Source: Dysgonomonas sp. PF1-14 (GTDB taxonomy: Bacteria > Bacteroidota > Bacteroidia > Bacteroidales > Dysgonomonadaceae). Taken from it: a stretch of DNA of 64,000 nt. Both the position numbers and the translations under genes were made by a program. The notes beneath the pieces were generated by a model, which worked only from the letters and a program-made list of their open reading frames with translations, searched no databases and was not told the origin of the DNA. The stretch is taken from contig NZ_JARXWN010000008.1 of the NCBI RefSeq assembly GCF_029892965.1, forward strand, positions 62,001 through 126,000, written 5' to 3'. Below are positions 35,615 through 47,867 of this stretch, piece by piece (position 1 is the first letter of the stretch; every line of letters begins with the position of its first letter).

Positions 35615-35648
35615 AAAAGCCTTGTGTTGTTTCAACGCAGGGCTTTTG
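35615..35648 (-). terminator. Hairpin at the end of the F-protein gene
   Basis: AAAAGCC (35615-35621) pairs with GGCTTTT (35641-35647) with inner complementarity (TGTTG/CAACG). A short T-run follows on the reverse strand. It may attenuate transcription into the G gene. Confidence 0.45.
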
Positions 35649-37014
35649 ACTTTTTACCAAAGTCTTTGCCCAGGATATAATCCCTGTCATATTTTACAAC
35701 ATAACCATCCTTTATAACCCACACTTCGCGAATATTCTTCTTAATCTTCACACGCCCACGAATTGCCCGGTTGATAATATTGTCGTCCATATAACCCGAT
35801 ATATTCAACAGTACATGATCAGCCTGAGCTCCGGCACTCCTTAACTCCTGGCTAACGGCATTATAAGTATTCTTGTCGAGCGTTTTAAACTCGAATATTT
35901 TACCTCCGATCATCGCATCCGGATTCTTATTCGGTTTCACGCCATCAGGTATAAGCAGCTCGCGAAGCTTTTTTTGTTTAGGATCCACTTCAGGAATGAG
36001 CCTTACCTTATGTCCTAAATTAGCCAGCGTCTCACCAATGGTTTTATTTACCGGCTTCTTATCAGCCAGTGTATGGATATCCAAATAACCGCCCTGAGCC
36101 CCAACAGACTCCTGGCGAACATACTCCATCGTACTGGTATCATGTTGCTGCACAAAGTTCTGTATCTGATTACGTGTGAGATTGCTTTCAGTAGAATAAG
36201 GATGCTTATCGATAGCAACCGGCTCAGCTGTAACACCCGGATTATTTTGGAATACTTCAGGAGTATCGTCCGACTCATCGAACAAGCCGTCCGGATATTT
36301 TACAGCAGCTCTTGTCTGTCTGATCCAACATTGACAACCCCAGGATATCGGAGGTGTATGAGTTTGCCACCAGGGATGATCCATGGGTAATATGATCCCC
36401 ACCCACTTCATGTGTTCCGGGCGTTTATCCCTGGCACGGCTTTGCATAAATTCGAGATTCGGAAATATATGCTTCCTTTCCTCGAATTTTTTCCAATTGG
36501 TAGCCATGCGAGCCGAACGGACAAAGGTATCGTACTCAGTCTTCAGGTACCGCTGGTTATATTCCCCGATGATGGGTTTTACTGCTTTCCTGAATTGGCT
36601 GAAAGTGCGTTGATTTCCATTCTCATCCAGCATCATCCGAGCGAGCTCTTCACCCTGCTTGTGGGTTTTGAATGCTGCGAATATGGCTGTATTGTGTTTG
36701 AACTGCTCAATAAATACCTTGTTTCGTTTGCCAAATTCAATGCCGGCACTACTGAACGTTTTATCTATACCTTTTTGCAGGGGTGTATTATTCAGTTCAA
36801 ACAAATACGGATCGATATCACCAACGCCTCCACGCTTGTGATATATATTATTGAGAGCTTTCTTTAGTAGCCGGTTAAAATCTATTACCGGTATATCTGC
36901 ATCCCCATCCAGTTTATAAGAGTGATCGAAATCACAGCAACCGGATTGATAATACAGCTTGTGTATCTGTTGATGAAACGGAATAGCCCCGGTATCGATG
37001 CCAGGGCTTAATCG
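35632..37014 (-). CDS. Mu F-like minor head protein with C-terminal nuclease-like domain; translated by -1 frameshift from the portal gene
   Basis: The frame is open from 37065 to 35632 but contains no ATG or GTG; the first TTG (36802) is ~60 codons inside conserved sequence. It begins where the portal frame would slip at T TTT TTC (37014-37020), continuing RLSPGIDTGAIPFHQQ. From that point it has 460 codons. The N-terminal ~255 residues match SPP1 gp7/Mu F head-morphogenesis proteins (HMKWVGIILPMDHPWWQTH, PPISWGCQCWIRQT). The C-terminal ~120 residues (LLIPDG..NPDAMIGGKIFEFKTL) contain a D-x(8)-ExK motif of PD-(D/E)xK nucleases such as CdiA-CT tRNases. Predicted product: fusion with the portal protein. 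Confidence 0.8.
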   Translation of the reverse strand, partial: RLSPGIDTGAIPFHQQIHKLYYQSGCCDFDHSYKLDGDADIPVIDFNRLLKKALNNIYHKRGGVGDIDPYLFELNNTPLQKGIDKTFSSAGIEFGKRNKVFIEQFKHNTAIFAAFKTHKQGEELARMMLDENGNQRTFSQFRKAVKPIIGEYNQRYLKTEYDTFVRSARMATNWKKFEERKHIFPNLEFMQSRARDKRPEHMKWVGIILPMDHPWWQTHTPPISWGCQCWIRQTRAAVKYPDGLFDESDDTPEVFQNNPGVTAEPVAIDKHPYSTESNLTRNQIQNFVQQHDTSTMEYVRQESVGAQGGYLDIHTLADKKPVNKTIGETLANLGHKVRLIPEVDPKQKKLRELLIPDGVKPNKNPDAMIGGKIFEFKTLDKNTYNAVSQELRSAGAQADHVLLNISGYMDDNIINRAIRGRVKIKKNIREVWVIKDGYVVKYDRDYILGKDFGKKSKALR

Positions 37015-37020
37015 AAAAAA
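36985..37020 (-). promoter_or_regulatory. -1 programmed frameshift signal, portal to F
   Basis: On the reverse strand: heptamer T TTT TTC in the portal zero frame (37020-37014), 5-nt spacer GATTA, then hairpin AGCCCTGG / CCGGGGCT (37008-37001 and 36992-36985, one U-G pair) with an 8-nt loop. The portal stop codon is within spacer and stem. This is the textbook layout of bacterial -1 frameshifting. Confidence 0.8.
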
Positions 37021-38297
37021 CTGAGTGACTCGTTTGCCGGATCCTGACGAACTTCGCTCTTTGGATTATCTTCGTCCAGTTCTACATCATATGTATCCTC
37101 AATATATTTTGGTTTGAGATTATATCCGGCACGAAGCAGTTCAGCATCGATCTTAATTTTGTCTTTCGGTTTGATAACTGCCTTTTCCTGAAGCTCCAGA
37201 TAATAACCGTCCGGGATATCATATCCTAGGTTACGCATCACCGGGAGAAAGTCATCGGTCGCCCAGTCCTGAAAGTCCATGATGTCGGCATCCGTTATCT
37301 CCTGGTAGGTTTGCTGGTGTACTTCAGCCTGTGATTGAGAACTACCATCGTCCATCGTCATAGTTTGCCCTACGATACCTTTAGACATTTCCCGGTTGAT
37401 CACATTGATTTTTTGCAGAAAGACATTGAAAGAATCGGACTTCTGATTCTCTTTGATCTCAATATCCACTTGTTTATCAAATATACCATAGCTGGCAGTT
37501 CCCATTGTTTCCAACCAGCTTTGTAATTCATTCTTATGTTTTTCGGAGTTAATCATTGTCCGGGCAATCCGGATCGGCACCCCGAATATTTGTTCAAACT
37601 CATCCCATGAAGCCCATGAATGTCGTTTATATATTGTCATGGGAGCCACACGCTCCAAGATTCCAACCGCTTCAGGGAGAAGCTGAATATATATCAAGAA
37701 ATTAGGAAAAGCAACGTATGGAATAGCTTCTCCTGAAGGGTTGTGAGCCTCTTTGAGAATCAGCCCCTTTTCAGGGATAACATTCTCACGAGGTATATCT
37801 ATTATTTTGTTAATGGATCCGGCTGTGAAATTATTGATAAAGCACATACTATACCCATAGAATTTAGACTCCATGGCTTTACGGGTAACGTGCCTGAACC
37901 AACGTTTCTGAACAAAAAGAGAGCGTTTTGTATCGATTACTCCTTCAGGATCCTTCAATACTGCTTCTTTGTTGGTGACACGTAATATACGGTTCTCTAT
38001 GGCTCCCTGTAAATGATTATCCAGCATCGAATCTTTATATAGTTGCTGGATAGGATATGTAATAGGGTTGAACGGATCGTAACGCATGATCCGGGCTTTT
38101 TGCCAGTCGGTTACTTCCTTTCTATATAAAGACTCATAAAAATGAAAATAATCGATTTCCATCTTAGAAGAGCCCCGTGTATCTACAATATCAGGTTGCT
38201 TGCCGAATCGATTTGATTTTCTCTTATCTCCAGCCAGTACCAGTGATTTTCTTTGAGTAGGTGTATTTGTCCTGTTATAATATTTTCTTCTGCTCAT
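37008..38297 (-). CDS. Portal protein (Mu gp29-like, DUF935)
   Basis: 429 residues. ITDWQKARIMRYDPFNPITYPIQQLYKDSMLDNHLQGAIENR and EIFGVPIRIARTMIN-type segments, with a C-terminal DADIMDFQDWATDDFLPVMRNLGYDIPDGYYLEL, fit Mu-like portal proteins. It forms the dodecameric vertex through which DNA enters the head. The terminal codons SFFD contain the frameshift heptamer, so a fraction of ribosomes should continue into the F frame to give an 888-residue fusion. Confidence 0.83.
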   Translation of the reverse strand: MSRRKYYNRTNTPTQRKSLVLAGDKRKSNRFGKQPDIVDTRGSSKMEIDYFHFYESLYRKEVTDWQKARIMRYDPFNPITYPIQQLYKDSMLDNHLQGAIENRILRVTNKEAVLKDPEGVIDTKRSLFVQKRWFRHVTRKAMESKFYGYSMCFINNFTAGSINKIIDIPRENVIPEKGLILKEAHNPSGEAIPYVAFPNFLIYIQLLPEAVGILERVAPMTIYKRHSWASWDEFEQIFGVPIRIARTMINSEKHKNELQSWLETMGTASYGIFDKQVDIEIKENQKSDSFNVFLQKINVINREMSKGIVGQTMTMDDGSSQSQAEVHQQTYQEITDADIMDFQDWATDDFLPVMRNLGYDIPDGYYLELQEKAVIKPKDKIKIDAELLRAGYNLKPKYIEDTYDVELDEDNPKSEVRQDPANESLSFFD

Positions 38298-45876: not shown

Positions 45877-47037
45877 ATGGGATTACCTGATATAGAAATA
45901 GAATTAGTCCGGGACGGTTTAGGACTGGTTGCTGAGACAAACGACAATACATGTGGTATTGTTCTTTCGGGTGCTGCTGTTCAGGATAAACTTGAATTAA
46001 ATAAAGCCTATGCCATATACAGTACGGATGGTGCTAAAAAATATGGCATCGAACCTGAAGGTGATAATGCTGCTGCATACAGGCACATCTCTGAGTTTTA
46101 TGCAGTAGCCGGTACCGGGAAGAAACTTTGGATACTGATGGCTGAACAGGCTGCAAAACTTTCAGACCTGGTTAATACAGACAAACCCATTTGCCCGGCT
46201 AAAGTTCTTTTGAATAAAGCCGGTGGTGAGATTGTCGCCCTGGGGCTGACAACCGGCACCGATGCTGGTGAAGTGTTAGACGGCTTGGATAGCGAGGTGT
46301 ATTTAGCTATGACAAAGGCTCAGGTACTAGCAGATGCCTTTCAAAAAAAGATCATGCCTTTTGTTACAGTTATTGAAGGTCGCAAATTTGAAGGGGATGC
46401 CGATGCCCTGAGAGACCTGAAGACAGAAAGCAAATACCGCAATGCTATTGCCCTATGCTCAACACAAACGGATGGATCGGCATCAGTGGGCTTGGTTCTC
46501 GGTCGTATAGCAGCCATACCGGTGCAACGCAAAATATCCCGTGTCAAAAATGGAGCTCTTCCTATCGACTTCGGATATCTGAGCGATGGCATCCTGGTTG
46601 ATGAAGACCGGGAAGATCTGGGTACGATCCACGACAAACGCTTTATCATCTTCAGGAAGTTTCCGAATAAGTCCGGATTCTTTTTCAATGGGGATTTTAC
46701 AGCAACATCAGCTACTGATGACTTGAATATCATCGCCCGGATCCGAACCATTGACAAAGCTACAAAGATAGCTTACAATACTTATGTAGAGGACTTGGAT
46801 GATGATGTGGAAGTGAACGATGACGGGACACTTCATCCTTCAGTAGCCGCTTATCTCAAGAAAAAAATAGAGGATCAGGTAAACAATGCCATGGACGGCG
46901 AAATATCCAATTTCGTGGCTACTATCGATACCTCTATCGATGTGCTTGCCGGTAATGCACAAAAGATATACCTGGATATTACGCCAAAAGGTTATCTGAG
47001 TGCTATTCGTGTGGTTCTTGGTTTCAAGAATGAGTAA
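45877..47037 (+). CDS. Contractile tail sheath protein (DUF2586-like)
   Basis: 386 residues with sheath-like features: an N-terminal Gly/Leu-rich start (GLPDIEIELVRDGLGLV), a conserved YGIEPEGDNAAAYRHISEFYAVAG, and a C-terminal DITPKGYLSAIRVVLGF strand. It corresponds to Mu gpL. Contraction drives the tube into the host envelope. Confidence 0.75.
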   Translation: MGLPDIEIELVRDGLGLVAETNDNTCGIVLSGAAVQDKLELNKAYAIYSTDGAKKYGIEPEGDNAAAYRHISEFYAVAGTGKKLWILMAEQAAKLSDLVNTDKPICPAKVLLNKAGGEIVALGLTTGTDAGEVLDGLDSEVYLAMTKAQVLADAFQKKIMPFVTVIEGRKFEGDADALRDLKTESKYRNAIALCSTQTDGSASVGLVLGRIAAIPVQRKISRVKNGALPIDFGYLSDGILVDEDREDLGTIHDKRFIIFRKFPNKSGFFFNGDFTATSATDDLNIIARIRTIDKATKIAYNTYVEDLDDDVEVNDDGTLHPSVAAYLKKKIEDQVNNAMDGEISNFVATIDTSIDVLAGNAQKIYLDITPKGYLSAIRVVLGFKNE

Positions 47038-47486: not shown

Positions 47487-47867
47487 ATGGCAGAAGAAAA
47501 AGCAAAACTAATCGGAGAAGTCGAACAGGCTCAGATTGATACTTGGAAAAAGGATCCCAAATGTTTGGGAGTAGTAGGAATCATTGTCGGTGGGCATATT
47601 GCCTATGTCAAACGCCCGGATCGCAATGTGGTAAGCTATGCACTTTCTCAGATGTCGTTCTCTATGACTCCTTCCAACGATTCACTGGAGCAGGCTAAAA
47701 TAGAAATGAGCCTGGGCAAAATGTACAAGCAGGGTGAAGCCGTACTGGTTCATTGCTGGCTTGGTGGCTCGGAGGAGATTCGCTCAAACAATAAACTTTG
47801 GACGGGTGCCTGTATGAAAGCCGGTGAGCTGGTAGAGTATGAGGAGGCTGAACTAAAAAACTTCTAA
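47487..47867 (+). CDS. Tail assembly chaperone (zero-frame product)
   Basis: 126 residues (MAEEKAKLIGEVEQAQIDTWKKDPK...). The gene ends in CTA AAA AAC TTC TAA, containing a -1 slippery heptamer three codons before the stop. Directly upstream of the tape-measure gene, as in lambda G/GT and Mu gp41/42. Confidence 0.8.
   Translation: MAEEKAKLIGEVEQAQIDTWKKDPKCLGVVGIIVGGHIAYVKRPDRNVVSYALSQMSFSMTPSNDSLEQAKIEMSLGKMYKQGEAVLVHCWLGGSEEIRSNNKLWTGACMKAGELVEYEEAELKNF

Follow-up and report, generated by a model that had tools for sequence, protein, structure and literature searches.

The 64,000-nucleotide stretch of Dysgonomonas sp. PF1-14 DNA analysed here (referred to below as the window; the source genome has 4.58 Mb) carries a Mu-like prophage, and this work concerns the junction between its portal gene and the adjoining gene for the head protein MuF, both on the minus strand. 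The portal open reading frame (ORF), taken as the zero frame, occupies positions 37008-38297 (429 amino acids) and matches the Portal_Mu profile (PF06074, 1e-64) above its cut-off and over positions 1-335 of 336, as expected for a full-length portal of the Mu type. MuF follows in the -1 frame and, when read from the presumed slip, extends over 35632-37014 (460 codons plus a stop codon at 35634-35632), an extent based on ORF analysis and on the protein constraint that relatives show over its start-less part. It contains a Phage_Mu_F domain at 36325-36606 (PF04233, 1.9e-8, residues 149-242 of the scanned translation P0001; 35.4 bits against a cut-off of 29.6).

The last portal codons read AAC GAG TCA CTC AGT TTT TTC GAT TAA and hold, in portal phase, the slippery heptamer T TTT TTC (37014-37020, minus strand), which is also kept in relatives. 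Behind it come a 5-nucleotide (nt) spacer (37009-37013), made up of GAT plus the TA of the TAA portal stop codon (37008-37010), and a GC-rich hairpin of 8 base pairs (bp) with an 8-nt loop (36985-37008), the presumed frameshift stimulator, whose arms (AGCCCTGG and CCGGGGCT) include one G-U pair. The open -1 frame begins 55 nt upstream of the portal stop; its first ATG lies 374 nt past that stop (36636), with no GTG earlier. The match to the MuF profile sets in 137 nt past the portal stop, while the first start-like codon, a TTG (36802-36804) chosen by the ORF finder as the start of MuF, stands 206 nt after that stop, inside the conserved MuF region. Joining 428 portal residues to the 460 of MuF gives a predicted fusion of 888 residues. 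An earlier note, made from the letters of this stretch, had described the missing upstream start, the -1 offset, the zero-frame heptamer, the spacer, stem and loop and the size of the fusion, all of which we recovered; its stem, however, was said to cover the portal stop and shares only the last base of that codon. That note had also proposed folding the junction, and the 76-nt RNA gives -16.4 kcal/mol (z -1.93, with 8 of 200 shuffles equally good), which taken alone is modest evidence; no Rfam family matched the junction up to E = 1. An in-phase heptamer, a downstream structure and a conserved start-less -1 ORF, three elements of a programmed -1 frameshift of the X XXY YYZ type, are present.

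The conservation of these elements was followed in 236 loci from IMG/VR, species genomes, other genomes and phage records, in which portal and MuF were located by iterated profiles in six frames. After dropping 14 loci that end before MuF, one without a portal and one (L149) whose portal match is short, 220 loci were left, which form 164 clusters at 80% portal identity. This sampling is partial, comprising the best 80 of 143 relatives in one search, three draws of 395, 395 and 393 genomes (with 6 weak places from these draws left out) and, from the phage collection, 9 of 143 MuF-matching and 8 of 87 portal-matching records; a nucleotide search of that collection found nothing that matched the window. 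In the species genomes, the window portal has its nearest named relative in Dysgonomonas sp. 520 (74%; L056, in the same cluster as the window), which has the identical heptamer and a hairpin with other letters.

Among the 164 clusters, MuF lies in the -1 frame in 96, is fused to the portal in 24, lies in the +1 frame in 13 and in the 0 frame behind a stop in 6, and was not found in 25. An in-phase X XXY YYZ heptamer (with Y being A or T) occurs in the portal-MuF overlap of 87 of the 96 -1-frame clusters (137 of 146 loci), compared with 6 of 96 in an equal interval 200 nt upstream and with 30.4 of 96 expected when the same residues are resampled with synonymous codons; the comparison of homologues that the earlier note had called for thus upholds its heptamer. 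Similarly, the last 75 nt of the portal hold a heptamer in 89 of the 96 -1-frame clusters, against 1 of the 19 whose MuF lies in +1 or 0 and 2 of the 25 in which no MuF was found. The 3'-most heptamers of the 87 clusters are T TTT TTC (38), A AAA AAG (19), A AAA AAA (9), A AAT TTT (8), T TTT TTT (5), G GGA AAG (4) and four others found once each, and in 53 of the 87 this heptamer begins exactly 10 nt ahead of the portal stop. T TTT TTC keeps the portal phase in 39 clusters, against 2 and 0 for the two alternative phases; for A AAT TTT the numbers are 10, 0 and 0. These two provide the clean phase test, since long A-runs inflate the control over all heptamers (39/96 and 32/96 in the wrong phases). 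Nine -1-frame clusters lack a heptamer, and all but one of them (L191) have an ATG close to the portal stop, from -49 to +29 nt relative to it.

Judged by its substitutions, the start-less segment behaves as coding sequence in the MuF frame. Between independent pairs, with identical segments excluded and the segment running from the heptamer to the first ATG or GTG (at most 60 codons), the ratio of nonsynonymous to synonymous differences per site (pN/pS) is 0.44 in the MuF frame, with pN below pS in 29 of 29 pairs (1201 codons), and 0.96 (17 of 30 pairs) and 1.28 (7 of 29) in the other two frames, ratios which are only a guide because pS is near saturation.

Regarding the downstream structure, the folding z-score of 45-nt segments is lowest just after the heptamer for the T6 (-1.78, n = 44) and A3T3 (-2.52, n = 9) sites, for the T6 and A3T3 fusions (-1.70, n = 8) and, weakly, for the A6 sites (-0.82, n = 29), with no such dip in the A6 fusions (-0.29, n = 11). 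A hairpin, defined as perfect, at least 6 bp long and separated from the heptamer by 4-10 nt, follows 27 of the 44 T6 two-frame sites (0.8 expected), 2 of 9 A3T3 sites (0.3 expected), 5 of 29 A6 sites (0.4 expected) and none of the five others; in the fusions it is present at 4 of 4 T6 (0.2 expected), 2 of 4 A3T3 (0.2 expected) and 0 of 11 A6 sites. The 31 T6 hairpins (27 in two-frame and 4 in fused clusters) have 27 distinct arm pairs, and their spacer measures 6 nt in 20 of the 31 and 5 or 6 nt in 28. Given that complementarity was the search rule, the weight of these hairpins lies in their number and place and not in their pair types. Compared across these relatives, the T-type hairpin is conserved in position and not in letters, so that the conservation of the stem, which the earlier note had suggested checking, holds for its place only.

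Based on the signal, its conservation and the constraint on the -1 frame, we infer slippage and its rate, and consider it highly probable that the junction is a programmed -1 ribosomal frameshift yielding both the portal and the 888-residue portal-MuF protein. In this mechanism, most ribosomes would reach the portal stop and release free portal, while a fraction would slip back by one base on T TTT TTC, aided by the hairpin 5 nt downstream, bypass the portal stop and read the MuF frame into the fusion. Fusion and portal subunits could then co-assemble in the portal ring, with the slip rate setting the number of MuF domains at the portal inside the head; slippage would in this way probably hold MuF to a small number of copies per ring. 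Among solved portals, the one closest in sequence is present as 24 chains in two entries (9khx and 9knu), which would fit 12-mers, and a rate near 8-17% would place one to two MuF in each 12-mer, the copy number reported for gp7 of phage SPP1. In the window, where MuF has a CdiA-like end, the same device may meter a toxin-type cargo.

A number of observations weigh against this interpretation. Resampling alone expects a heptamer in about a third of the clusters, the hairpin rule is unmet at 17 of 44 T6 and 7 of 9 A3T3 two-frame sites, the A-type sites mostly have no hairpin, be they two-frame (5/29) or fused (0/11), and no dip in folding energy follows the heptamer at the four G3A3 sites (-0.40). 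Others speak for a MuF that is made separately, by translational coupling or from an unusual start, either the TTG at 36804 or a non-standard codon near the portal stop. Within 60 nt of the heptamer, ATG, GTG or TTG is found in 36 of the 87 slippery clusters (ATG or GTG in 14), and in 4 of the 87 an ATG or GTG stands in the MuF frame upstream of the heptamer. In Hankyphage p00, which carries the frameshift signal and whose record annotates two genes, an ATG overlaps the portal stop beside the heptamer (as ATG GTGA, also found at the portal stop of BX-TP1), and re-initiation may take place there. Mu-like phages of other hosts provide further examples, with a MuF start overlapping the portal end by 8 nt in the Vibrio phage martha and Mushuvirus records; in the jmh43 record the MuF start lies 17 nt past the portal stop, and where MuF is in the +1 or 0 frame, an ATG is found no more than 30 nt from that stop in at least 12 of 19 clusters. 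Nevertheless, only 4 of the 87 slippery clusters have an ATG 60 nt or less from the heptamer (the median distance to the first ATG being 237 nt, and two clusters having none within the available sequence), and in 57 of the 87 the MuF profile match precedes the first ATG or GTG, counted from the heptamer, with the stretch ahead of it coding in the MuF frame. A separate start would, additionally, leave the in-phase heptamer and the hairpin unexplained, and we regard it as very unlikely at this junction.

The two products would be identical if it were RNA polymerase that slipped on the homopolymer, giving mixed transcripts and a fusion of transcriptional origin. At the A-type sites there is little downstream structure, and runs of 9-11 A are present in 20 of the 29 two-frame clusters and in all 11 fusions; because of these runs, polymerase slippage is about as likely there as ribosomal slippage, which also tells against ribosomal frameshifting, and for the A-type phages we give it slightly less than even credence. 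The window, however, has a run of six T, the T-runs are of exactly 6 in 39 of the 44 two-frame T-type clusters, T TTT TTC is nearly confined to one codon phase, the spacer of the T6 hairpins, where found, keeps to the narrow range given above, and the A AAT TTT and G GGA AAG sites are without a long run. T-runs of six and A3T3 and G3A3 sites lacking a long run favour ribosomes, and a transcriptional origin is very improbable for the window, marginally more so than a separate start. The least credible explanation is an accidental signal, in which gene decay, an error in sequencing or an intrinsic terminator where the portal gene ends would mimic a recoding site. A terminator scan does flag the hairpin as terminator-like (1 found, 0.3 expected), and the portal of a second prophage in the same host has an in-frame TAA, but the arrangement recurs in Dysgonomonas sp. 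520 and in 86 further clusters, what follows the hairpin (ATTCCGTTTC) is no clean run of T, and MuF and the tail completion gene continue on the same strand. For the window, separate initiation, transcriptional slippage and terminator or decay were all found weaker than ribosomal frameshifting.

The slippery site is also kept where portal and MuF share one frame, an observation that the earlier note did not make. An in-phase heptamer is present in 20 of the 24 fused clusters (in one of them only CCCTTTG), against 11.0 expected (P about 2e-5), and the fusions that keep it in the linker include Porphyromonas phages (L232 and L227). In the 19 fusions with a heptamer not of the CCC type, a slip would terminate translation within 0-30 codons, so that in these relatives slipping may, with moderate support, release free portal. 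The excess of early -1 stops is not significant (a stop within 7 codons in 12 of 19, 9.5 expected, P 0.17), which counts against such a role; as these stops are not clearly enriched, support for the swapped role comes from the heptamers and from the T6 and A3T3 hairpins. In the predicted structure of one natural single-frame fusion (L099; mean predicted local distance difference test, pLDDT, of 71.1 and predicted template modelling score, pTM, of 0.44), which was used only for the linker, residues 381-424 are modelled with low confidence between more confident portal and MuF parts, and hold the slippery site. The genome of the window has a second Mu-like prophage (contig C17, about 81.3-85.2 kb; L002 and L090), with portal and MuF in one frame, in which one TAA interrupts the portal part and T TTT TTC and a GCCCCG/CGGGGC hairpin are kept; it is counted apart from the 24 fusions, in the 0-frame class through its TAA, and was manually relabelled as a fusion for the portal tree only.

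This tree, a quick one of 139 clusters under a simple model and with two long branches unsure, holds 87 two-frame slippery, 25 fused and 27 separate clusters and needs 25 changes of state, or 16 when only the two-frame and fused states are considered. On the 106 slippery rows, parsimony gives 13 changes between two-frame and fused and at least 16 of heptamer class; since the class changes while a heptamer persists, the letters turn over and the property stays. The earlier note had named homologues with a normal start in place of the heptamer as the finding that would speak against its reading: these make up 27 of the 139 clusters, in several parts of the tree, and none of the 17 in the well-supported clade of the window, all of which are two-frame and slippery. 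A distant portal branch (L147, L151, L204 and L213-L215), with five rows from another family of the phylum and one from the same order, has a -1 MuF behind A-runs and is possibly a separate origin of the arrangement. Taken together, we lean slightly towards the view that selection across the Mu-like phages of Bacteroidota maintains both portal and portal-MuF through -1 slippage, that the two frames have repeatedly exchanged roles and that the slip rate sets how many MuF ends, often toxin-type, are present in each 12-subunit ring.

The toxin-type end of the window MuF, likewise absent from the earlier note, is a CdiA_C-like C-terminal domain at 35704-35928 on the minus strand (PF18451, 1.2e-11, residues 375-449 of P0001), of the kind seen in MuF polymorphic toxins, with a score of 45.1 bits against a cut-off of 26.6. 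The C-terminal domains of MuF in the 20 relatives scanned are CdiA_C in 3, LPD3 in 2 and a glutamine amidase match in 1, with none named in the rest, and some of these matches fall under the curated cut-off. The order of genes on the minus strand is large terminase (40385-38742), Gp36-like adaptor (38815-38306), portal, MuF and a tail completion-like gene identified by profile matches (35526-35026). Structural genes are present on both strands, with the changeover near 40.4-41.3 kb, and a tail sheath-like gene (45877-47037, plus strand, phrog_907) leads us to expect a contractile tail. Ahead of the tape measure gene, the ORF at 47487-47867 (plus strand) has an in-phase A AAA AAC at 47855, 10 nt before its stop, past which the -1 frame continues through another 56 codons without a stop; this is likely the known frameshift of tail assembly chaperones, and together with the portal site it would give the prophage two -1 sites.

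Frameshift-made portal-MuF proteins thus appear, on comparative grounds, to reach well beyond the window in the Mu-like phages of Bacteroidota. They add a pair of head-assembly genes, far from the tail chaperone case, to the conserved phage frameshifts, and the set includes the hankyphage, a widespread gut phage annotated with two separate genes. They also offer an answer to two questions, how a ring of identical subunits gains no more than a few MuF domains, and how phages may tether and count the MuF toxins that they carry. The MuF N-termini are probably misplaced in several phage records: in Elizabethkingia phage TCUEAP3 (L225), the annotated MuF begins 275 nt after the portal, yet the -1 frame is free of stops from a T TTT TTC onward, so the recorded start is likely wrong, and the record of Winogradskyella phage Peternella_1 leaves a gap of 98 nt between portal and MuF. 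Virion mass spectrometry of a hankyphage has been published (excerpt of PMC12135933).

The earlier note's suggestion that such a frameshift may be new still stands, given that a full-text search of open PubMed Central papers, which leaves most subscription papers outside, returned no description of one. The word portal is absent from the text on PRFect (PMC10885494), whose predicted cases, in the part available, include MuF-like/VIP2 genes known as a single fusion gene, and from the recoding surveys PMC3711429 and, in its accessible portion, PMC5009743; the word frameshift does not occur in the main text of PMC5576092 and PMC11699363, and the GenBank records inspected have separate or fused genes, with no joined feature in the stretches shown. 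The nearest known systems are the tail assembly chaperones of the lambda gpG/gpGT type and the SPP1 pair 17.5/17.5*, the latter with a putative UUUUUUC site (excerpt of PMC6316719). In both, as proposed here, a structural gene of the phage undergoes a -1 shift close to its end, which gives a minor, C-terminally extended form, and the SPP1 heptamer is the same as in the window. The lambda genes, however, encode tail chaperones ahead of the tape measure gene, whereas here a head pair is joined and the extension is of 460 residues, a protein that has its own gene elsewhere.

The same two proteins are found as one gene in Microbacterium phages of subclusters EA3, EA5 and EA8 and of cluster EB (according to the available part of PMC7302621), in keeping with the earlier note's statement that single-gene fusions are known, and PHROG 35074 (890 positions) matches portal over 26-375 and MuF over 442-672. 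Those fusions, as far as that part of the source goes, use one frame, whereas in the window two frames would be joined by slippage, and both forms alternate on one portal tree of the Bacteroidota relatives. The role proposed for the single-frame relatives follows the early-termination logic of dnaX, in which a -1 slip terminates translation early and gives a shorter product (gamma instead of tau); here the protein is one of the phage head, and an excess of early -1 stops is not shown. In SPP1 the portal is gp6 and the MuF protein gp7 (PMC5576092 and PMC6316719), the latter reported at one to two copies in the portions available. There, the arrangement differs in that gp7 binds the portal as a separate protein. 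Presumably, gp7 has its own start. Finally, MuF polymorphic toxins (PMC5576092, and Bxa of Bacteroides in PMC11699363, both in excerpt) combine a MuF N-terminal part with an exchangeable toxin-type C-terminus. They resemble the present case in their location among the head genes of temperate phages and in the C-terminal variation seen in the relatives scanned, with the difference that here the toxin-type end would be attached to a subunit of the portal.

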